The position numbers were made by a program, and so were the translations under genes. Of a stretch of 64,000 nt of DNA, positions 1,060 to 11,290 are shown in pieces. Every line of letters starts with the position of its first letter. The stretch's first letter is position 1. The stretch comes from Synechococcus sp. NOUM97013. GTDB taxonomy: Bacteria > Cyanobacteriota > Cyanobacteriia > PCC-6307 > Cyanobiaceae. The stretch covers positions 2,170,001 to 2,234,000 of the forward strand of contig NZ_CP047941.1 of assembly GCF_014279815.1 (NCBI RefSeq), given 5' to 3'. The notes under the pieces were generated by a model. It saw nothing but the letters and a program-made list of their open reading frames with translations. It did not search any database and was not told the origin of the DNA.

Positions 1060-2733
1060 TCAGAACTTGAAGGTGGTCTTCACGAGACCGCCGAAGTTGG
1101 AGAAGGTGTCGTCGCGGTCGCCTTCGGGGTCGCCGGAAGGACCGAAACCACCGCTAAGAGCAGCGGTACCTTGACCCAGGGGACGGCTCAGGTAGAAGAG
1201 CGCGGGAGTCACAGAGATGTTGTCGGTGACTTGGAACTTGTACCACCATTCCCAGGCGTAGTTGCCATCGCCGATCCACTCGCTGCCTTCGAAATCGTCG
1301 TCGAAGTCAACGCCGGTGATGAAGGTGGACTGGCCAACAGCCATACCAGCAGAGTTGCCTTTCAGGAAGACATCAGACCACTGCAGACCCACATACCAGG
1401 ACTGGGAGGTGGCGCTGTCAGCGAAGAGGCTGGCATCGTCGTCGATGTTGGTGGTGTTGATACCCCAACCGGTGCTGATGCTCGGGAACCAGCTAGCTGA
1501 TTCAGGAGACCAGTAGGCGCTCAGACCGAAGGAGTTGGTGACACCCAGGCCAGCGAAGCTGACAGCGGAGGGAGTGGCATTGCCGCCGTAGATGCCAACA
1601 CCGTTGTCGCCGGAAGCGTAGTTATACGCAGCAGCGATGCCCCAGTTGTCATCGGTGTAAGCGATCTGCACGGTGCCGTTGGAGGCTGCGCAGTCAGTGG
1701 CGATACCACCGCAGCTATCGATGAAGTCTTCACCGATGAACTCTTCGTCGTCTGAAGCGAAGAAGCTGTTGTCTTCAGGGTCGGAATTAAAGCCGTTAGC
1801 GCTGACGTAGTTAGCGCTGATGCTGAAGCCACCGCTTTCCCAGCTCAAGCCAGCACCTTGACCCAGGGTCAGGTTGTAAGTACCAGGAGCACCGGCGTAG
1901 GTGAAGAAGTCGAGGACGGTGTCAGCGGGGTAAGCGCTAGGCCACACAGCCAGCATGTCGTCCTGACGGACCAGACCACCCACGGTTGCAGTGAAGCTGT
2001 CGCCGATGGGGAACTGATACCAAACGCGGTTGATGGCCACGTTGTTGGGACCGTTGGGCTCTTCGAAAGCGGTCTCCATGGTGGTCATGCCGTTACCGAA
2101 AACGGACTGACCGAAGTTGCCAGCACGCAGCATGGTGCGCAGCAAGTCCTTACCCGTGAAGCTGGTGTCCAGGAACAGACGGGTGTCGTAGTTGAAGGTG
2201 GTGGCGCCGAATTCAGCTGCATATGCATCAGCTGCGTCATCAACGCTGCTGCTTGCAGTGGAAGCACCGATCACGAAGGTGGTTTGACCCTTCAGCTTGG
2301 TGGTGGTGGAGAACTGGGTTGCTTCCAGTTCGCCCACGCGGGCTTCCAGACCGTCCACACGGCCCTTGATGATGGCGAGTTCCTTTTCGAACTCCATCAT
2401 CAGGCGCTTCAGCTCGTCGGTCACTTCGGTGACGCGGTCGAGACAAGCGTTCAACAGTGCGGCCGCTTCAAAGCGGGTCATCGCACGGTTGCCGCGGTAG
2501 GTGCCGTTGGGATAGCCAGCGACGCAGCCGTAGCGCTCGATCAGATTGCTCAGAGCCTGATAAGCCCAGTCCGTCGGATAGACGTCAGAGAACTGAGTGA
2601 TGCTGGTGACCTGCTCGCCAGTCGAGGCGTAGTCGGCAACACCGGCAACGTTGACTTCAGTCGCACCGGCGGCCACAGGAGCCAGAAGGCCCAGGGCAGC
2701 GGGAGCAACCAGCAGTTGCTTGAAAAGTTTCAT
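1060..2733 (-). CDS. Outer membrane porin with SLH domain (SomA/SomB type)
   Basis: A 557-residue outer-membrane beta-barrel porin of the cyanobacterial OprB/iron-uptake porin family, the main general-diffusion pore in marine Synechococcus. In order: a signal peptide (MKLFKQLL start, cleavage probably after the Ala-rich stretch near residue 24), an S-layer homology domain (about 40-100) expected to anchor to peptidoglycan, a short coiled coil (about 105-140), then a long Asp/Gly/aromatic-rich barrel ending in Phe, as outer-membrane proteins do. The ATG at 2733 is preferred over an upstream in-frame start because it begins the signal peptide and has GAGG about 10 bases upstream. The gene is monocistronic, closed by the terminator at 1009-1037. 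Confidence 0.93.
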   Translation of the reverse strand: MKLFKQLLVAPAALGLLAPVAAGATEVNVAGVADYASTGEQVTSITQFSDVYPTDWAYQALSNLIERYGCVAGYPNGTYRGNRAMTRFEAAALLNACLDRVTEVTDELKRLMMEFEKELAIIKGRVDGLEARVGELEATQFSTTTKLKGQTTFVIGASTASSSVDDAADAYAAEFGATTFNYDTRLFLDTSFTGKDLLRTMLRAGNFGQSVFGNGMTTMETAFEEPNGPNNVAINRVWYQFPIGDSFTATVGGLVRQDDMLAVWPSAYPADTVLDFFTYAGAPGTYNLTLGQGAGLSWESGGFSISANYVSANGFNSDPEDNSFFASDDEEFIGEDFIDSCGGIATDCAASNGTVQIAYTDDNWGIAAAYNYASGDNGVGIYGGNATPSAVSFAGLGVTNSFGLSAYWSPESASWFPSISTGWGINTTNIDDDASLFADSATSQSWYVGLQWSDVFLKGNSAGMAVGQSTFITGVDFDDDFEGSEWIGDGNYAWEWWYKFQVTDNISVTPALFYLSRPLGQGTAALSGGFGPSGDPEGDRDDTFSNFGGLVKTTFKF

Positions 2734-2940
2734 AGGAAAAGGGTCCTCACACAGACCGACGCATAGCGTCATATGCACCATGCTCGTGAGCCGACTTCGA
2801 ATCCATCGGTCGTGTGACACAAGCAACCCTGGCTGGTATCAAGCGACACGCTGCAAAAAAGTTCGTGTTGATACAAAACAAACATCGGCATTGCCTGCTG
2901 TCAGCGGTTGCTGCCCACACAAAGACAGGGGTCGAGAACC
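2734..2940. other. Intergenic leader and promoter region of the porin
   Basis: About 200 bases without a convincing gene on either strand. It must carry the porin promoter and 5' leader on the minus strand. A short inverted repeat (GACGC around ATAGCGTC) lies roughly 25-40 bases before the porin start. I could not pick a reliable -10/-35 pair. Confidence 0.5.
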
Positions 2941-2982
2941 CCAAAACAAAACGATGCCCCCGACCGAATCTCGGCCGGGGGC
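2941..2982 (-). terminator. Strong Rho-independent terminator of a small minus-strand unit
   Basis: GCCCCCG-A-CCGA / TCGG-C-CGGGGGC forms an 11-bp stem with one mismatch and a 3-base loop (2956-2982), followed on the minus strand by a T-rich tract (CGTTTTGTTTT). The only thing it can terminate is the small unit starting just upstream at about 3091 or beyond, which makes it the best evidence that the unit is transcribed. Confidence 0.83.
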
Positions 2983-3037
2983 TCTCGCCGGGTCCGCTCT
3001 GGCGCGGAACCGATTGATCAGTCAGAAAATGGTGCCG

Positions 3038-3091
3038 TCAGCCGGCGTTCTCCGCGATCAGCAGACCCTGCTTCAAAGAACTGGAACTCAT
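3038..3091 (-). CDS. Possible 17-residue peptide with an ideal ribosome binding site
   Basis: A short reading frame encoding MSSSSLKQGLLIAENAG. It is listed because its start has an exceptional Shine-Dalgarno sequence, AGGAGGAGGTG, ending three bases before the ATG, in a genome where such sites are uncommon, and because a strong terminator follows 56 bases after its stop. I do not recognise the peptide. It could be a real micro-protein, a leader peptide, or a short ORF on a small RNA. The region upstream (3092-3245) is shared with the divergent GT-C gene. Confidence 0.5.
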   Translation of the reverse strand: MSSSSLKQGLLIAENAG

Positions 3092-3245
3092 GGACACCTC
3101 CTCCTGAAGGATTGTGAATGCCGGCAACGCCTTCGAAATCAACGCCACTCCGAAGAGTGAAGTCAATCTCACGTCACTGCACTCTGAACATTCCAACCCT
3201 ACCGAGATCCACCCGAACTGTGGACCCTCTGTACGCTCCGAGGCC

Positions 3246-4832
3246 ATGGCCCAAAAGCTCCCCTGGCGCCTGCTGCTGATTCTTTGGGTCACGGCAGCAC
3301 TGCTTTCCTGCATTGGCCTTGGCGACTTGCCGCTGAGAGATTTTGATGAAGCCACCGTCGCCCGCGTGGCGCTGGAATTCCATCAGGGCAGAGGCGAAGC
3401 CTTTTTGCTTCCAACCCTCTGGGATGAGCCATACCTCAACAAGGCACCAGGGCTGCACCTGATCATCGCAACACTGATTGGCCTCACCTCCCAACAGGCA
3501 CTTCCCTCGGAATGGACAATCCGCATCGCGCCTGCGTTGCTTTCAAGCCTGATCGTGCCGCTGGGGGGATTGCTGCAGTGGCAGCTGCGTCCAGGCGACC
3601 GTGACAGCTGCCTTGCCACCAGCGCCATCCTGCTCACGCTGCTGCCGATCGCCCGCCATGGACGACTGGCGATGCTGGACGGCACGCAGCTGACCGTGAT
3701 GGCTGTGCTGTGGATCGGCTTGTTGCGCCTGCATCGGGCACGCCATCCGGCAGGAATCGGCTTAATGACAGGACTTGCAGCCAGCGGCATGCTCCTGCTG
3801 AAGGCCCCACTACTGATACCGACCGCTGCCGCCGGCCTGGCCGCCATAGCACTGGGCCGGGAATGGCGGCATTGGCGATGGATCTCCGCAGCTCCAACAC
3901 TGCTGATCGGCATCCTTCCCGGCATCGCCTGGCACCTCTGGCATGGCTGGCAGCGGGGAACCTCTGCGCTTTGGCTCTGGGGAGGCGACGGCGCCGGTCG
4001 TGTGCTGCTGGACGCCGGAGAAGGCAGCGACCTTGGCTGGCGCGTGCCCCTGATCGAGCTCCTGGAAGGCGGATGGCCCTGGCTCCTGCTCTTCCCCATC
4101 GCCCTCTTTGGGGCTTGGCGCATACGCCAATCGCGCTGGGGCTATTGGAGCCTGGGCACCATGGCGGTTCTTGCAGCAGCAATCCTGCCGCTGCGCACCC
4201 AGCTTCCCTGGTACAGCCATCCCCTCTGGCTTCCGTTCGCACTGCTATGCGCACCACTGCTGGCATGGGTGGTCAACCGGATGCCCTGGCCATCAGGCAC
4301 CGTGCCGATGCGCAGGATCCTGGCTCTGATACCTGCACTCTGGGCAGGCCTTGGGGGGCTTCTGCTGATCGCCGGGATGGTCAGCCTGACGCCGGCCGCA
4401 GATGCCTTGAGTGATTACCGGTCGCCTGCTTTGACACTTGGGGCTGGCTGGTGCATCGGCGGCATCCTGCTGATGCACGACACACAGAACAGACGACGAG
4501 TGGGCGCCTTATGCCTGGTGATCGGAAATGTGGCCGCTCTTGCGCTCGTCTTCCACTCGCCGCTCTGGTTGTGGGAACTGAACGAAAGCTGGCCCGTCAG
4601 GCCCGTGGCCGAGATCACAGCAAGCGCAGACGGATCTCCGATCCGCCTCAAGGGCTTCAACGAACGCCCAAGTCTGAACTGGTATGCCGAACAACGCATT
4701 CGGCGCGAGCAATCAGACAACGGCAAGGCCCTCCGACTCAGTGATCAACCGCAACCCGACTGCCAACTCCTCGCCGAAACAGGCGACTGGACCTTGTCTG
4801 ACTGCGATAAAATGACCAAGAAGGGTGAATAA
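3246..4832 (+). CDS. GT-C glycosyltransferase, ArnT/PMT (GT39/GT83-like) family
   Basis: A 528-residue polytopic membrane protein that should transfer a sugar from a polyprenyl-phosphate carrier to a lipid, glycan or protein at the outer face of the plasma membrane. The first external loop carries RDFDEATVARVA and a WDEPYLNKAP motif, typical of the acidic catalytic loop of ArnT-like enzymes. Ten or more hydrophobic segments follow, then a short soluble C-terminus. The ATG at 3246 is preferred to one at 3114 because it directly precedes the first membrane segment; the extra 44 residues are polar and overlap the divergent small unit. It heads a run of three co-directional sugar genes and overlaps or abuts the next start by a few bases. 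Substrate unknown. Confidence 0.82.
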   Translation: MAQKLPWRLLLILWVTAALLSCIGLGDLPLRDFDEATVARVALEFHQGRGEAFLLPTLWDEPYLNKAPGLHLIIATLIGLTSQQALPSEWTIRIAPALLSSLIVPLGGLLQWQLRPGDRDSCLATSAILLTLLPIARHGRLAMLDGTQLTVMAVLWIGLLRLHRARHPAGIGLMTGLAASGMLLLKAPLLIPTAAAGLAAIALGREWRHWRWISAAPTLLIGILPGIAWHLWHGWQRGTSALWLWGGDGAGRVLLDAGEGSDLGWRVPLIELLEGGWPWLLLFPIALFGAWRIRQSRWGYWSLGTMAVLAAAILPLRTQLPWYSHPLWLPFALLCAPLLAWVVNRMPWPSGTVPMRRILALIPALWAGLGGLLLIAGMVSLTPAADALSDYRSPALTLGAGWCIGGILLMHDTQNRRRVGALCLVIGNVAALALVFHSPLWLWELNESWPVRPVAEITASADGSPIRLKGFNERPSLNWYAEQRIRREQSDNGKALRLSDQPQPDCQLLAETGDWTLSDCDKMTKKGE

Positions 4833-4833
4833 C

Positions 4834-5955
4834 GTGTCTTCCAGCGCAGCAAATATCACCAATAAGAGTCAAGGATTGTCAATCATCCTGCCCACATTCA
4901 ATGAATCCGGGTCCATCAAGCAGGTCATCACCGCTCTTCTGGATCTCACCCAATACCGTCCAATTGAAATTCTGATTGTCGACGACGACTCGATCGACGG
5001 CACCGCGGAAATTGTTCGAATCCTGGCCAGGGAGGATTCAAGAATTCGCATCATTCAACGGGTCGGACGCTCAGGCCTCGCCAGCGCCATCAAAGAGGGA
5101 TTGATTGCGGCCGTCCATCCCATCGCAATTGTCATGGACAGCGACGGACAGCACGAACCAGCATCCGTGCAGCAGGCCATCGAAGCCTTGAGCGCCAACA
5201 ATGATTTGGTCGCAGGCAGCCGTTTTCTTGACCAGTCAGAAATCCGTGGACTGAGCAACCGCCGCACCGATGGCTCAACCATGGCCAACCGCATGGCGCG
5301 ATGGAGTCTTCCAACAAACTATGCACACCTCACCGATTACATGAGCGGCTTCATCGCGCTCAACCTTGATCGTTGTCTTCCATTCATCCGCCAAGTGGAT
5401 GTCAACGGTTTCAAATTTCTCTACGAATTACTGGCTATCAGCAAAGGTCAACTTCGCGTCACTGAAATCCCCCTTCGCTTTCAACCACGACTCCATGGGA
5501 GTTCAAAACTTGACTATGCCGTGCTCTGGGACTTCGTGATCTCTTTGATCCATACGTCCACCTTTCGGATTTTGCCGAGACGCGCCATCAGCTTTGGCCT
5601 CGTCGGCGCCTCAGGAGTGGTGATTCAACTCCTCAGCACCTTCGTTCTGATGACGATCGGGTTGAGCTTTCCGCAATCGCTTCCCCTTGCCGTGATCACA
5701 GCGGCAAGCTCCAATTATCTGATCAATAACATCCTGACCTTTGGAGATCGACGGCAAAAAGGGCGTCAACTGATCAAAGGACTGTTGAAATTTTTGCTGG
5801 TTGCCTCACTTCCCTCTCTGGCCAATGTGGGCTTGGCTAATAGCTTTTACAACATGGTCCAGTCCCATGCTGTTTTGGCACAGCTTGCGGGAATCATCGT
5901 GGTTTACATCTGGAATTACGCAGCGTCATCTCGCTTTGTGTGGAACACCCCCTGA
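4834..5955 (+). CDS. GT2 polyprenyl-phosphate sugar synthase fused to a GtrA domain
   Basis: Residues about 10-235 are a DPM1/GtrB-like family 2 glycosyltransferase (SIILPTFNES, VDDDSIDGT, MDSDGQHEP), which would charge a polyprenyl phosphate with a sugar from a nucleotide donor. Residues about 255-373 form a four-helix GtrA membrane domain, thought to help flip the lipid-linked sugar. Start choice: GTG at 4834 has AAGAAGG nine bases upstream; a GTG at 4825 is directly adjacent to that site and so less likely. The end of the preceding GT-C gene is 1 base away. Placed between two GT-C transferases, it probably supplies their donor. Confidence 0.88.
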   Translation: MSSSAANITNKSQGLSIILPTFNESGSIKQVITALLDLTQYRPIEILIVDDDSIDGTAEIVRILAREDSRIRIIQRVGRSGLASAIKEGLIAAVHPIAIVMDSDGQHEPASVQQAIEALSANNDLVAGSRFLDQSEIRGLSNRRTDGSTMANRMARWSLPTNYAHLTDYMSGFIALNLDRCLPFIRQVDVNGFKFLYELLAISKGQLRVTEIPLRFQPRLHGSSKLDYAVLWDFVISLIHTSTFRILPRRAISFGLVGASGVVIQLLSTFVLMTIGLSFPQSLPLAVITAASSNYLINNILTFGDRRQKGRQLIKGLLKFLLVASLPSLANVGLANSFYNMVQSHAVLAQLAGIIVVYIWNYAASSRFVWNTP

Positions 5956-5967
5956 ATCACGGCCGGG

Positions 5968-7512
5968 ATGAACTCAAGTGATGATCAACAGACCAGGTCA
6001 TGTCAGCCACCAGCTGGCATCTGGGCACCTGTCCTGCTGGGCGTGGTTCTGCGTTTGGTGAATATCTGGATGCCCGTGGTTGGCATCCACAGCTGGCGGC
6101 AAGCAGACACGGCTGCCATGGCCAGGCATTTTGCTGAATCCAACACGGCGATCTGGTTGCCGCAGATCGATTGGGGAGGAGCTTCACCCGGATACGTGGA
6201 ATCGGAGTTTCCACTGTTCCCTTACCTGACAGGTCAGATCTATCAGCTGTTCGGGATTCACGAATGGATTGGCCGTGGCCTGTCGGTGCTATTCAGTGCG
6301 CTCACCATTTGGCTTGTCATCCGACTGGGTCGACGCTGGTTCAATCCGGCAGCCGGGTGGTGGGGTGGCATGGCTCTAGCCGTGGCACCACTCGGTGTGT
6401 ATTACGGACGCGTCTTTCAAGCGGAAGCTCTGCTGCTGCTCTGTGCAGCAGGAGCATTGGAAGGCCACAGCATCTGGGTGGAACGACGGGCCTTCTGGGC
6501 ACTCGCGTTGAGCTGGCTGTGTTTCACAGGAGCAGCCCTGATCAAGGTGATTCCCTTGCTATGGCTCGGCCTTCCCCTATTGCTGCTGCAGCTCACTCCA
6601 TCCCCCCAAGGGGCAGCAGAGCCTCCTCAGCAGATGCTGCAACGACTGCTGCGTTTGCTGCGCAATCCCTGGTTCTGGGTTTACACAGCCACCACTCTGG
6701 CGGTGACATCAGCCTGGTATCTGCATGCCTATCAATTGGGCCAGAGCAGTGGTCTGACCTTCGGCTTCTGGGGAGAGGACAGCGATCGCAGCAACATCGA
6801 ACTGGTGCTGAATGGTTCGAGCTGGGTGAACCTTGCCATCCGTGTAGGTCTCCGTGCACTGCTCGTGGTGGGGATGCCCTTCCTCGTGATCGGCGCCATT
6901 CACGGCTGGAGGGTTGGTGGTGGGCGCATCGCCCTCTCAGGCGTGATCGGACTTCTGCTCTGCACTGTGGCGACGATGCGATCCAGCACGGTGCACGAGT
7001 ACTACCAGTTTCCGTTGCTGCTGTTCAGCTCACCCCTGGTGGGACTTGGTTGGCAGACCTGGCAATCCCATCAGCGGCGCTGGCTGGTCCGGACGTTGCT
7101 GAGCCTCACCTTGATCATCAGTGTGATGGTGCTGTCGATCGACTACTGGGCGGTGGAAGCAAGGCAACGCAGGATCTGGATGCCACTCGCTGAGACCATC
7201 CGACGCGAGCTCCCCGATGACGCTCGCATTGTGAGCGTCACCGGACCGGATCCAACCCTGCTCAACCTGGCGCGTCGTCAGGGTTGGCTGATCGCCAGCC
7301 AAAAGCTCACGCCAGAGCGCATCCAGGAGTTGAGAGACGCCGGAGCCAGCCATCTGGCAGGCAGTTTCCAATGGCAGGAGACCTACAACCCACTGCACGA
7401 GAAGCAGAGATCCAAGCTGGAACGGCTGGCCATCTCCAGCTCAGCTCCTTGGGTCGACCCACAGAAGCAGACCTATCTGCTTCCGATTGACGGGTTACCG
7501 GGCAACTTCTGA
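5968..7512 (+). CDS. GT-C glycosyltransferase, PMT (GT39-like) family
   Basis: A 514-residue multi-spanning membrane protein with about ten hydrophobic helices and a soluble C-terminal part (about residues 405-514). The first external loop has HSWRQADTAAMARHF followed by an acidic YVESEFPLFPY stretch, the arrangement of PMT-type transferases that use lipid-linked sugars. It starts 12 bases after the GT2-GtrA stop, so it is probably in the same operon. The acceptor cannot be told from sequence. It converges with the DUF2079 gene, 14 bases away. Confidence 0.8.
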   Translation: MNSSDDQQTRSCQPPAGIWAPVLLGVVLRLVNIWMPVVGIHSWRQADTAAMARHFAESNTAIWLPQIDWGGASPGYVESEFPLFPYLTGQIYQLFGIHEWIGRGLSVLFSALTIWLVIRLGRRWFNPAAGWWGGMALAVAPLGVYYGRVFQAEALLLLCAAGALEGHSIWVERRAFWALALSWLCFTGAALIKVIPLLWLGLPLLLLQLTPSPQGAAEPPQQMLQRLLRLLRNPWFWVYTATTLAVTSAWYLHAYQLGQSSGLTFGFWGEDSDRSNIELVLNGSSWVNLAIRVGLRALLVVGMPFLVIGAIHGWRVGGGRIALSGVIGLLLCTVATMRSSTVHEYYQFPLLLFSSPLVGLGWQTWQSHQRRWLVRTLLSLTLIISVMVLSIDYWAVEARQRRIWMPLAETIRRELPDDARIVSVTGPDPTLLNLARRQGWLIASQKLTPERIQELRDAGASHLAGSFQWQETYNPLHEKQRSKLERLAISSSAPWVDPQKQTYLLPIDGLPGNF

Positions 7513-7526
7513 TTCCAGACAGCTTT

Positions 7527-9155
7527 TCAGTTCAACCAGGAACAGGAGCAAGGCTCGATGAACGTCTCAGCGGGAGCGCTGATCTCGGCCGACGCACGCT
7601 GCAAGACCACCGTGCCAGCACGACAGTGCACCACTCGGTAGTCACCGGATTCAACAAGGCGCGTGAGCTCACGCCGGATGGAGCGTTGCTGGTTGCGCTC
7701 CAGCTCAAACACAGGCGCCAACGGCGCGTAGTGGCCGGGGAATGCCACCACCCAGTCGACCGACTGAGGCTCACCGGAACGATCGAGATAGTGGGTGGAC
7801 TTGGGGAAACGGATCAACACCTCCCGCTGCGCAAGTGAGGGCAGAACAGGCGTATCGGCCGACACACTGGCCTGGTCAGGGATCAAGGCGACAGCTTCAC
7901 GCAGGGCGGCGCGGCGTTCGAGCATCGCGACTGGAGAGACATGAACCCAGGGCGAAAAGCTGTCGGGCACGAGCGCCGAAAGGCTGCGATGGGGATTCGC
8001 CACCAGGGTGAGCGTGAGACCGAGTGCCAGGGCACCCACCCAGCAGCGACGAATCCACCGCCTCGACCAGAGCAAGGGATGGCGCTGCCACCACAGAACG
8101 GAACCCAGGTAGAGACCGGGCACCAAGGCCAGCACATAGCGAAGGGTGACGGACAGTGCCGAGCGCCCTTGCGAGACCAGTGCAATCAGAAGAGGAGCCG
8201 CCACCAGCAAGGCTGAATCCACCGACAGCAATGGAATCAGCAGCAGCGGCAGACTGAGCGCCAACAGAAATCCCAGTGTGGCGCCAGGGGGGGACACAAT
8301 CGCCTGCAGTAGCGCCAGAGGATGGCGCAGCATGGCGAGCAGCACCGAGAGGGTCCCGCCCGACACGTCCTCCACGAGATGGCCGAACTTCTCCTGCAGA
8401 AAACGGTCAGACAAGGACGAATCAACCGCCGGTTGCATCCATCCGGTCACCAGCAGCACCCACAGGAAAGAGGCCGCCATCAGTCCGACACCGCTCCAGC
8501 GTGAACCGGGCTGACGCACCAGAGCCCAGAGCCCCAAAGAGAACAAGACAAGACCGCTGTCTTCCCGAACGAGCAGGAGCATCACAGCTGCTAGCACCAG
8601 CTGACGACGGCGCTGCTCCAAAAGCGATTCCACCACAAGAAATCCGAGCAGGGGTAGCCAGATCAGATCGTGAAAGTTTTCAAGGGCCGGGCCAATCACG
8701 GCACCACTGAGGTAGTAAGCGGCGGTGATCCGGATCGCCAGTGACGCCGGGAGTCGCCTTGCGGCGATCCTCCAAAGCACCAGGCCTGCGGCCGTCAACA
8801 CGCCCACCTGCACCAGAGGAAGCGCCCAGCTCCCCAGCAGAGCCACCAGTGGTGCGATGAGCAACGTGAGGAAATTGGCGTGCTGGCCCAGATGGAGATA
8901 GGTCACCGACGGCAATTCACCGTCCACCTTCACCGCCGCGGACAGCACTGATGAGAGGCTGCTTTCAAAGGGACGCCCCTGCGCCGTTGACCAGAGTTCT
9001 TGGAGAAAGAGTGCCTGGTCGTAGGTGGCACTGAGACTCTCCAGCCGCCAGATCTGAATCGCCAGACAGACCAGAAAGAATCCTGCCGCCAGAGCCTTCA
9101 CCACACCTGGCATCAGACCTGATGAGGGGACCGCCGGTGCGGTGGAGTCACTCAT
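7527..9155 (-). CDS. DUF2079 family polytopic membrane protein
   Basis: A 542-residue protein with 10-12 predicted membrane helices. The N-terminal part matches DUF2079: after the first helix come YDQALFLQELWSTAQG, a Ser-rich stretch and the loop HLGQHANFLTLLIAPL. DUF2079 proteins resemble GT-C glycosyltransferases and may act on cell-envelope sugars, but the reaction is unproven. Its position beside three lipid-linked-sugar genes supports an envelope role. The ATG at 9155 directly precedes a short polar leader and the first helix. The C-terminal 130 residues are soluble. Confidence 0.8.
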   Translation of the reverse strand: MSDSTAPAVPSSGLMPGVVKALAAGFFLVCLAIQIWRLESLSATYDQALFLQELWSTAQGRPFESSLSSVLSAAVKVDGELPSVTYLHLGQHANFLTLLIAPLVALLGSWALPLVQVGVLTAAGLVLWRIAARRLPASLAIRITAAYYLSGAVIGPALENFHDLIWLPLLGFLVVESLLEQRRRQLVLAAVMLLLVREDSGLVLFSLGLWALVRQPGSRWSGVGLMAASFLWVLLVTGWMQPAVDSSLSDRFLQEKFGHLVEDVSGGTLSVLLAMLRHPLALLQAIVSPPGATLGFLLALSLPLLLIPLLSVDSALLVAAPLLIALVSQGRSALSVTLRYVLALVPGLYLGSVLWWQRHPLLWSRRWIRRCWVGALALGLTLTLVANPHRSLSALVPDSFSPWVHVSPVAMLERRAALREAVALIPDQASVSADTPVLPSLAQREVLIRFPKSTHYLDRSGEPQSVDWVVAFPGHYAPLAPVFELERNQQRSIRRELTRLVESGDYRVVHCRAGTVVLQRASAEISAPAETFIEPCSCSWLN

Positions 9156-10234: not shown

Positions 10235-11290
10235 TCAGAGAGCGTTGCCGCGGGGCAGAACCTCTTCAGGGAAGACGAAGTTTTCGTGCGGCTGGTCAGC
10301 CGGTGCCATCCAGGCACGCAGACCTTCATTCAGAAGGATGTTCTTGGTGTAGAAGGTCTCGAATTCGGGATCTTCTGCAGCGCGGATTTCCTGGGACACG
10401 AAGTCATAGGCGCGCAGGTTGAGGGCCAGACCGATGATGCCGATGGAGCTGGTCCACAGGCCCATCACAGGCACGAACAGCATGAAGAAGTGCAGCCAGC
10501 GCTTGTTGGAGAACGCAATTCCGAAGATTTGGCTCCAGAAGCGGTTGGCGGTGACCATGGAATAGGTCTCTTCTTCCTGAGTGGGCTCGAACGCCTTAAA
10601 GGTGTTGGCCTGCTCGCCGTCCTCAAACAAGGTGTTTTCCACGGTGGCACCGTGAATGGCGCAAAGCAGTGCACCGCCGAGGATGCCGGCGACGCCCATC
10701 ATGTGGAAAGGATTCAGGGTCCAGTTATGGAAGCCCTGAAGGAAGAGAAGGAAGCGGAAGATCGCAGCCACACCAAAGGAGGGCGCGAAGAACCAGCTGC
10801 TCTGGCCGAGGGGGTACATCAGGAAGACGCTGACGAACACCGCGATCGGACCGGAGAAGGCGATGGCGTTGTAGGGGCGGATGCCGACCAGACGGGCGAT
10901 CTCGAACTGACGCAGCATGAAGCCGATCAGAGCGAAGGCGCCGTGCAGGGCCACGAAGGCCCAAAGGCCACCGAGCTGACACCAGCGAACGAAGTCACCC
11001 TGGGCTTCAGGGCCCCAGAGCAACAGAAGGCTGTGCCCCATCGCATCAGCGGGGGTGGACACAGCAGCTGTCAGGAAGTTGCAACCTTCCAGGTACGAAG
11101 AGGCGATGCCGTGGGTGTACCAGGAGGTAACAAAGGTGGTGCCTGTGAGCCAGCCACCAATGGCCAGGTAGGCCGTGGGGAAGAGAAGAATGCCGGACCA
11201 GCCGACAAAAACGAAGCGGTCGCGCTTGAGCCAGTCATCGAGGACGTCAAACCATCCCCGCTGAGGCGCGCGTCCTACAGCGATCGTCAT
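10235..11290 (-). CDS. psbD: Photosystem II reaction centre protein D2
   Basis: D2 pairs with D1 to hold the primary photochemistry cofactors of photosystem II in the thylakoid membrane. The 351-residue length is the usual D2 length, and the sequence follows the family from [13 protein letters not shown] through the five helices, including [13 protein letters not shown] and [19 protein letters not shown]. It is D2 rather than D1 because of the N-terminus, the overall length and the LPRGNAL end. There is no psbC overlapping its 3' end; instead a terminator follows. This should therefore be the stand-alone copy of psbD, a second copy being expected with psbC elsewhere. The start has no obvious Shine-Dalgarno sequence. 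Confidence 0.97.

Follow-up and report, generated by a model that had tools for sequence, protein, structure and literature searches.

The window analysed here is a 64,000-nucleotide stretch of Synechococcus sp. NOUM97013 (contig NZ_CP047941.1, positions 2,170,001 to 2,234,000), and near its beginning, on the minus strand, lies what appears from sequence comparison to be a structured RNA of ~242 nt, running from approximately 3190 to 2948 and carrying an open reading frame (ORF) of 17 codons. As the first-pass annotation had reported, a porin gene follows on the same strand (ATG at 2732, ~215 nt past the RNA end) and a glycosyltransferase (GT) gene is divergent. Large membrane glycosyltransferase-like and DUF2079-like genes at 3114-9155 separate the RNA from a PsbD-like (photosystem II D2) gene, psbD2, which lies upstream of it at 10238-11290 on the minus strand; the names of neighbouring genes reflect our own recognition of their sequences, not an annotation. 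A small GGGGTTCTCGACCCC palindrome is present at the 3' edge of the RNA (2925-2946, plus strand), where an Rfam look-alike scores below its threshold. The elements of the unit are, in the order of the putative transcript:

3196..3201, minus strand: -10-like box TAGGGT, TAnnnT in relatives (44 aligned upstream regions)
3116..3184, minus strand: P1, the 5' hairpin domain (3184-3173 with 3128-3116), from covariation
3095..3105, minus strand: Shine-Dalgarno (SD) sequence AGGAGGAGGTG, with GGAGG in 107/107 pattern-selected loci
3038..3091, minus strand: 17-codon ORF MSSSSLKQGLLIAENAG plus stop, exactly 17 codons in 85/87 model hits
3043..3068, minus strand: 5' strand of P2/P3, ORF codons 8-17 (3068-3061, 3055-3051, 3046-3043), from covariation
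2990..3012, minus strand: 3' strand of P2/P3 (2997-2990, 3008-3004, 3012-3009), from covariation; the same bases form P5
3011-3004 with 2997-2991, minus strand: P5, a competing local hairpin, from covariation
2948..2989, minus strand: P4, the terminator hairpin, with GGCGA/UCGUU as its lower and GCCCCC.../...GGGGGC as its upper stem, from covariation and the terminator scan

The signals first noticed at this locus are confirmed. The SD sequence, AGGAGGAGGTG at 3105-3095, is separated by three bases (TCC) from the ATG at 3091-3089 on the minus strand, the frame encodes the 17 residues MSSSSLKQGLLIAENAG before a TGA ending at 3038, and the very stable terminator is a hairpin of 12 pairs, 10 of them GC, at 2982-2956, followed by ATCGTTTT. 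This hairpin is the top candidate in a scan of 2600-3400 for terminators (6 sites on both strands, with 0.8 expected from shuffles), and a 180-nt stretch folds better than 200/200 shuffled sequences (z -3.85). The unit itself is present where it had been placed, at 2941-3091, but that extent is too short, the 5' end apparently lying ~100 nt further upstream, near the TAGGGT at 3201-3196. Among 44 aligned upstream regions, two of which (L064 and L151) come from the same genome, 41 carry TAnnnT, usually at the same alignment position with respect to the conserved 5' part, and L150, L176 and L205 lack it; the motif is short, and it is the fixed place that carries the evidential weight. A scan for sigma-70-type promoters returned no match. 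Transcription would be expected to start at ~3188-3190.

A chance origin can be dismissed because a DNA search matched ~130-185 nt of the unit in 30 further genomes, with 79-97% identity (31/60 with the window's own). Ordered by relatedness, this search found the RNA in 29/31 genomes of the same genus, the window's own included, in 2/6 other members of the family and in 0/23 genomes of other families; the two genus members missed, G015 and G029, have a completeness of 63% and 85%. A covariance model detected it in 203/400 genomes of the picocyanobacterial family, representing 39/59 genera, and of 194 genomes drawn across the class 10 gave a match, every one of them a member of the window's own family. 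The core occurs in records titled Synechococcus WH7803, RCC307 and WH 5701, Cyanobium, Vulcanococcus, Aphanothece and Prochlorococcus MIT 0701, among the 80 titles listed. No match at E<=1 was obtained in the small, 99-100% complete family genomes G033, G063, G070, G079, G084 and G091, of which G063 (1,751,080 bp) is presumably Prochlorococcus SS120. One contig titled as a Bifidobacterium breve MAG (L155, CALPNT020000072.1) holds the RNA adjoining a DUF2079-like gene, and is probably a mislabelled or contaminated assembly. The possibility of phage copies was discarded: a search of 50,697 phage records gave no match, and an exact core pattern was absent from viral contigs. The RNA is single-copy with few exceptions, two matches being found in G022, G023, G271 and G365 among the matches listed. 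The second copy in G023 (L123, 1519-1685, minus strand) lies ~5 kb from the intact one and is decayed, its 3' half partly kept and its SD and ORF both lost. When the window was searched with Rfam 15, tRNA alone reached the gathering threshold, with nothing for this RNA; at a relaxed E-value the nearest family was a ribosomal leader (26.7 bits vs 35.7 needed) on the opposite strand at the RNA's 3' edge, and the RNA of five relatives returned nothing.

Judged by its conservation, the ORF is evolutionarily real. The SD, an ATG or GTG start, exactly 17 codons and a stop are kept in 85/87 model hits, with 57 ATG and 28 GTG starts and 81 TGA, 3 TAA and 1 TAG stops, the exceptions being L078, frameshifted and from a genome only 71% complete, and L123, the decayed copy. 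These hits come from a model built on this RNA, so conservation among them is favoured. A second set of 110 loci was chosen by a pattern covering codons 8-16 only, and is free of selection bias for codons 1-7, codon 17 and the stop, but not for codons 8-16; three of its loci are cut by contig ends and uncounted, and in all 107 with room the start, the stop and GGAGG are present and premature stops are absent, with AGGAGGTG in 104 of the 107. The first-pass annotation had proposed comparing conservation of the ORF with that of the hairpin in related genomes, and both turn out to be kept; since the frame is conserved, the pattern named as evidence against it, a hairpin retained while the codons are lost, is not what the relatives display.

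Site-by-site comparison used alignment A6, made with MAFFT from 70 of the 87 model hits and not fitted to structure. It omits 12 relatives of rows that were kept (L002, L007, L012, L017, L018, L019, L022, L081, L084, L090, L117 and L121), the contig-cut L077 and L127, the frameshifted L078, the decayed L123, and L082, a weak match with its 17-codon ORF intact; its counts thus exclude both hits with a non-intact ORF, which the count of 85/87 includes. Across 54 columns and 70 sequences the ORF has no gap cell, and the segments flanking it vary in length from 58 to 86 nt on one side and from 1 to 67 nt on the other. Start-codon changes are solely A<->G, and stop-codon changes occur solely among stops. 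Changes were counted by parsimony on trees built from the RNA alignments themselves. Premature stops are seen in 0/70 sequences, vs a mean of 4.3 expected from column shuffling (P 0.0056), and nonsense changes number 0 vs 8.3-9.7 expected from the changes that occurred (P <= ~2e-5), an expectation of which a good share probably stems from codon 8 (CAG/AAG, ten first-base changes). For codons 2-7 of the pattern set, none was seen vs 2.3-3.7 expected (P 0.009-0.05, depending on transition bias). Of the other frames of the same 51 nt, one has stops in 69/70 sequences and frame 2 in only 8/70; that frame 2 is open in the remaining 62/70 tempers the argument from the absence of nonsense. A longer in-frame protein beginning upstream (105 codons from a GTG) was ruled out, as the indels of the 5' UTR are not multiples of three. 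Taken together, the comparisons argue strongly that ribosomes translate the ORF.

Purifying selection on the encoded amino acids, as would be looked for in a micro-protein, was not found. Omega is 1.02 in codons 2-8, where 43 changes are synonymous and 159 nonsynonymous, 1.32 in codons 9-17, where pairing confounds it, and 1.11 over codons 2-17; because the two other frames give 1.6 and 0.92, the in-frame value of 1.11 does not single out this frame, and an RNA constraint that depresses synonymous rates could raise omega. Changes at codon positions 1:2:3 stand at 70:109:111 for codons 2-17, without a clear third-position excess. In the pattern set, the 106 distinct loci yield 38 synonymous and 156 nonsynonymous changes in codons 2-7, an omega of 0.99-1.43 according to the transition bias assumed. 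Peptide positions 2 and 7 each take 13 different residues among 141 distinct sequences, residues 4, 9-12, 14 and 16 are nearly fixed, and the consensus is [MV]xxS[CS]xx[QK]GLLIAE[NK]Ax; in codons 13 and 17 the third base is almost fixed and the first two are variable. Codons 9-17 also pair, so that selection on amino acids there is inseparable from RNA pairing. Missense change is thus tolerated, codons 2-8 being neutral, and nonsense change is unseen; we strongly infer that selection keeps translation through to the stop, and hardly the amino acids of the first half. Columns 150-153 of A6 (codon 4 and the first base of codon 5) read AGTT in 66/70 sequences, lie outside all supported helices and have variable neighbours.

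The consensus structure of A6 comprises 45 pairs, 28 of which have both-sided changes among the 70 sequences. The helices were predicted from the same alignment on which they were tested, which biases the slid controls towards them, and the shuffles leave the relatedness of the sequences in place. In P1 both-sided changes occur in 11/11 pairs, 92.5% of cells are paired and 0/500 shuffles do as well; its distal stem is variable and its internal loop conserved. This loop (3172-3170 / 3135-3129), in which GUG (62/70) stands opposite a CGAANGC-like strand between two stems, looks like a ligand or protein binding site. P2/P3, which joins the second half of the ORF to the 3' strand, has 97.9% of cells paired and both-sided changes in 7/17 pairs, and 0/500 shuffles matched it by any of the five measures. 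Compensations can be picked out by eye, L066 having changed two P2 pairs together, L118 a third, and L068, L094 and L071 pairs of P3. The linker between the two arms ranges from 1 to 67 nt, almost none in L072 and long in L070 and L122, and the hairpin is kept. P5 has 97.1% of cells paired and both-sided changes in 3/7 pairs, a level reached by 1 to 20 of 500 shuffles depending on the measure; its support is modest and may partly echo that of P2/P3, because the segments resemble each other. P4 has 97.3% of cells paired and both-sided changes in 10/17 pairs, two of which lie in the lower stem that the UCGUU tail helps to form. A local hairpin inside the ORF, P6, is not supported, its one both-sided pair being reached by 198/500 shuffles (by other measures, 9/500 for cells paired and 34/500 for the covariation score).

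P2/P3 and P5 draw on the same 3' bases, and folding calculations indicate which would prevail. For the free RNA the probability exceeds 0.5 for P2 in 48/70 sequences, for P3 in 45/70 and for P5 in 13/70; blocking the SD and ORF, to mimic a ribosome, brings P5 above 0.5 in 55/70. The window's own free RNA is an exception, already favouring P5 (0.92) over P2/P3 (0.08 and 0.07). In the calculated free RNA the mean probability that the SD is unpaired is just 0.29, which is at odds with a permanently open start, and in the window the SD is concealed by the minimum-energy fold, so the start may not be open.

The position of the unit between psbD2 and the porin raises the question of whether it belongs to one of its neighbours, as a cis-acting leader or attenuator of the porin or as a product of the psbD2 3' UTR. 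The gene order in relatives gives this idea what appeal it has: psbD2 lies directly upstream of the RNA in many of them, and, from protein searches of the flanking DNA, the ancestral order seems to have been rpaB - ABC transporter - small gene - psbD2 - RNA - porin, glycosyltransferase-type genes having been inserted on either side. Gene order also largely refutes it, for a leader or attenuator should precede a conserved same-strand gene, and among 30 loci, some too short to judge, the RNA is followed in 12 by a porin-type ORF and in 11 by a DUF2079-like gene in convergent orientation, differing in both content and strand. No functional tie between the RNA and the porin is apparent, the downstream gene differing among genomes. 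Against a 3' UTR product stand the RNA's own -10-like box, the ~7 kb that separate it from psbD2 in the window, and a terminator-like hairpin, recognized by eye, that precedes the box in several relatives in which psbD2 is adjacent; the RNA looks like its own transcription unit. As the neighbours differ on both flanks, both versions are unlikely, and we consider the cis reading as a whole highly implausible. Glycosyltransferase-type and DUF2079-like genes are found on either flank of the RNA in relatives, in a manner resembling an insertion hotspot for surface-sugar genes, and several draft contigs break inside the psbD-like gene, presumably owing to psbD duplication.

The choice originally posed for this locus was between a micro-protein gene and a small RNA from which the peptide is perhaps made. 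Each option is right in part: the locus holds a conserved, structured RNA, bounded by promoter-like and terminator-like signals, and an ORF that is real, but a peptide conserved as such has not emerged where this can be judged. That the 17-aa peptide is the working product, with RNA structure merely tuning its expression, is unlikely: the conserved SD, start, stop and length and the nearly fixed residues would be expected of such a gene, but omega is ~1 in codons 2-8 with no clear excess of third-position change, residues 9-12, 14 and 16 fall where the codons pair with the 3' strand, and the variation in codons 13 and 17 is the opposite of what protein selection produces. Doubtful, too, is a classical dual-function RNA, a base-pairing small RNA (sRNA) with a peptide of separate activity in the manner of SgrS/SgrT, which the similar size, the SD-led ORF and the conserved 3' part would fit; the neutrality of codons 2-8 speaks against it, as does a crude duplex test ignoring internal structure, in which the mRNA starts of porin and psbD2 gave no pairing signal (z 0.46 and -0.63). 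A strong duplex result for GT572 was set aside as a trivial antisense overlap. Most of the conservation is readable at the RNA level, covariation in P1 and P4 is strong and frame 2 of the same bases is mostly open, all of which would suit a purely structural or regulatory non-coding RNA with the ORF an accident of conserved sequence. We nevertheless regard this as very unlikely, given that the SD is nearly invariant, that the start is just ATG or GTG and the stop just TGA, TAA or TAG, that neither indels nor nonsense changes interrupt the frame, and that the decayed copy L123 lost SD and ORF together.

The reading we tentatively prefer, at somewhat short of an even chance, is that of a free-standing regulatory RNA of ~242 nt in which translation of the internal 17-codon ORF determines the conformation. 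In the untranslated state P2/P3 would be shut; a ribosome in codons 8-17 would remove one P2/P3 strand, and the freed 3' strand (3012-2990) could then fold into P5 or pair elsewhere, with P5 formed in the translated state. Such an RNA would act in trans and be gated by ribosome supply, by initiation conditions or by whatever binds P1, and this seems the simplest reading because the frame is conserved, its first half is neutral, its second half pairs and no conserved cis target is present. A more specific version, in which being translated is the function itself and the ribosome flips two conserved, mutually exclusive folds of a free-standing device that signals to trans targets without any cis gene, is rather unlikely. 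On that version, the RNA would report ribosome activity, or a signal read by P1, to its targets.

This is an RNA family for which no description was found, and it is unusual for a conserved frame to encode a peptide whose first half is largely neutral. Dual-function RNAs are usually judged by conservation of the peptide; in this one conservation extends to the frame but not to the initial half of its peptide, and being translated may matter more than the peptide made. If this is true, translation itself would be the regulatory input to a trans-acting RNA. Many lineages of the marine and freshwater picocyanobacteria, phototrophs of very high abundance, have kept the RNA; its small gene, of which there is nearly always a single copy, occurs in the named strains WH7803 and RCC307. 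Literature searches on Yfr RNAs, on sRNAs and small proteins of Prochlorococcus, on cyanobacterial dual-function sRNAs and on psbD2 sRNAs yielded no description of it; an earlier listing under some name, or detection as an unnamed transcript, is possible.

Parallels with known systems are instructive. In leader-peptide attenuators, translation of a short ORF selects between mutually exclusive RNA folds, and a similar translation-dependent choice is proposed here, with the difference that the present RNA has neither a conserved downstream gene that we could find nor a conserved run of codons. Within the same group of organisms, two RNAs invite comparison by description. The present RNA is nearly always single-copy, among the matching genomes listed, and has no match at E<=1 in G063, the genome taken above as SS120. 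Yfr103, likewise a structured RNA of a few hundred nucleotides and an abundant ncRNA of marine picocyanobacteria, differs in having 7 paralogs of 290-328 nt in CC9605 and in occurring in SS120, so that, as far as its description in PMC5069720 extends, the present RNA does not belong with it. Yfr6 is 244 nt in Prochlorococcus MED4 and 239 nt in SS120, and its locus could code for a 33-aa peptide (PMC1242208), a likeness in length and in a possible short peptide; its Northern signal was restricted, in the same account, to MED4 and SS120, the latter being the strain to which the genome without the present RNA was assigned. The nearest kind are the dual-function RNAs RNAIII, SgrS and SR1 (PMC4683094), which have functional peptides. 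RNAIII of Staphylococcus aureus (514 nt) encodes the 26-aa delta-hemolysin, and deletion of its 3' end activates translation, according to the title of a paper cited there; it too is a regulatory RNA, the short ORF inside it interacting with the 3' part, but its peptide is itself active, whereas the first half of the peptide described here drifts freely. SgrS/SgrT (227 nt, 43 aa) is of similar size and, like SR1/SR1P (39 aa), carries a short ORF inside an sRNA (PMC4683094). The coding and pairing parts of SgrS are separate, whereas in the RNA of this window the second half of the ORF is itself an arm of the conserved hairpin.
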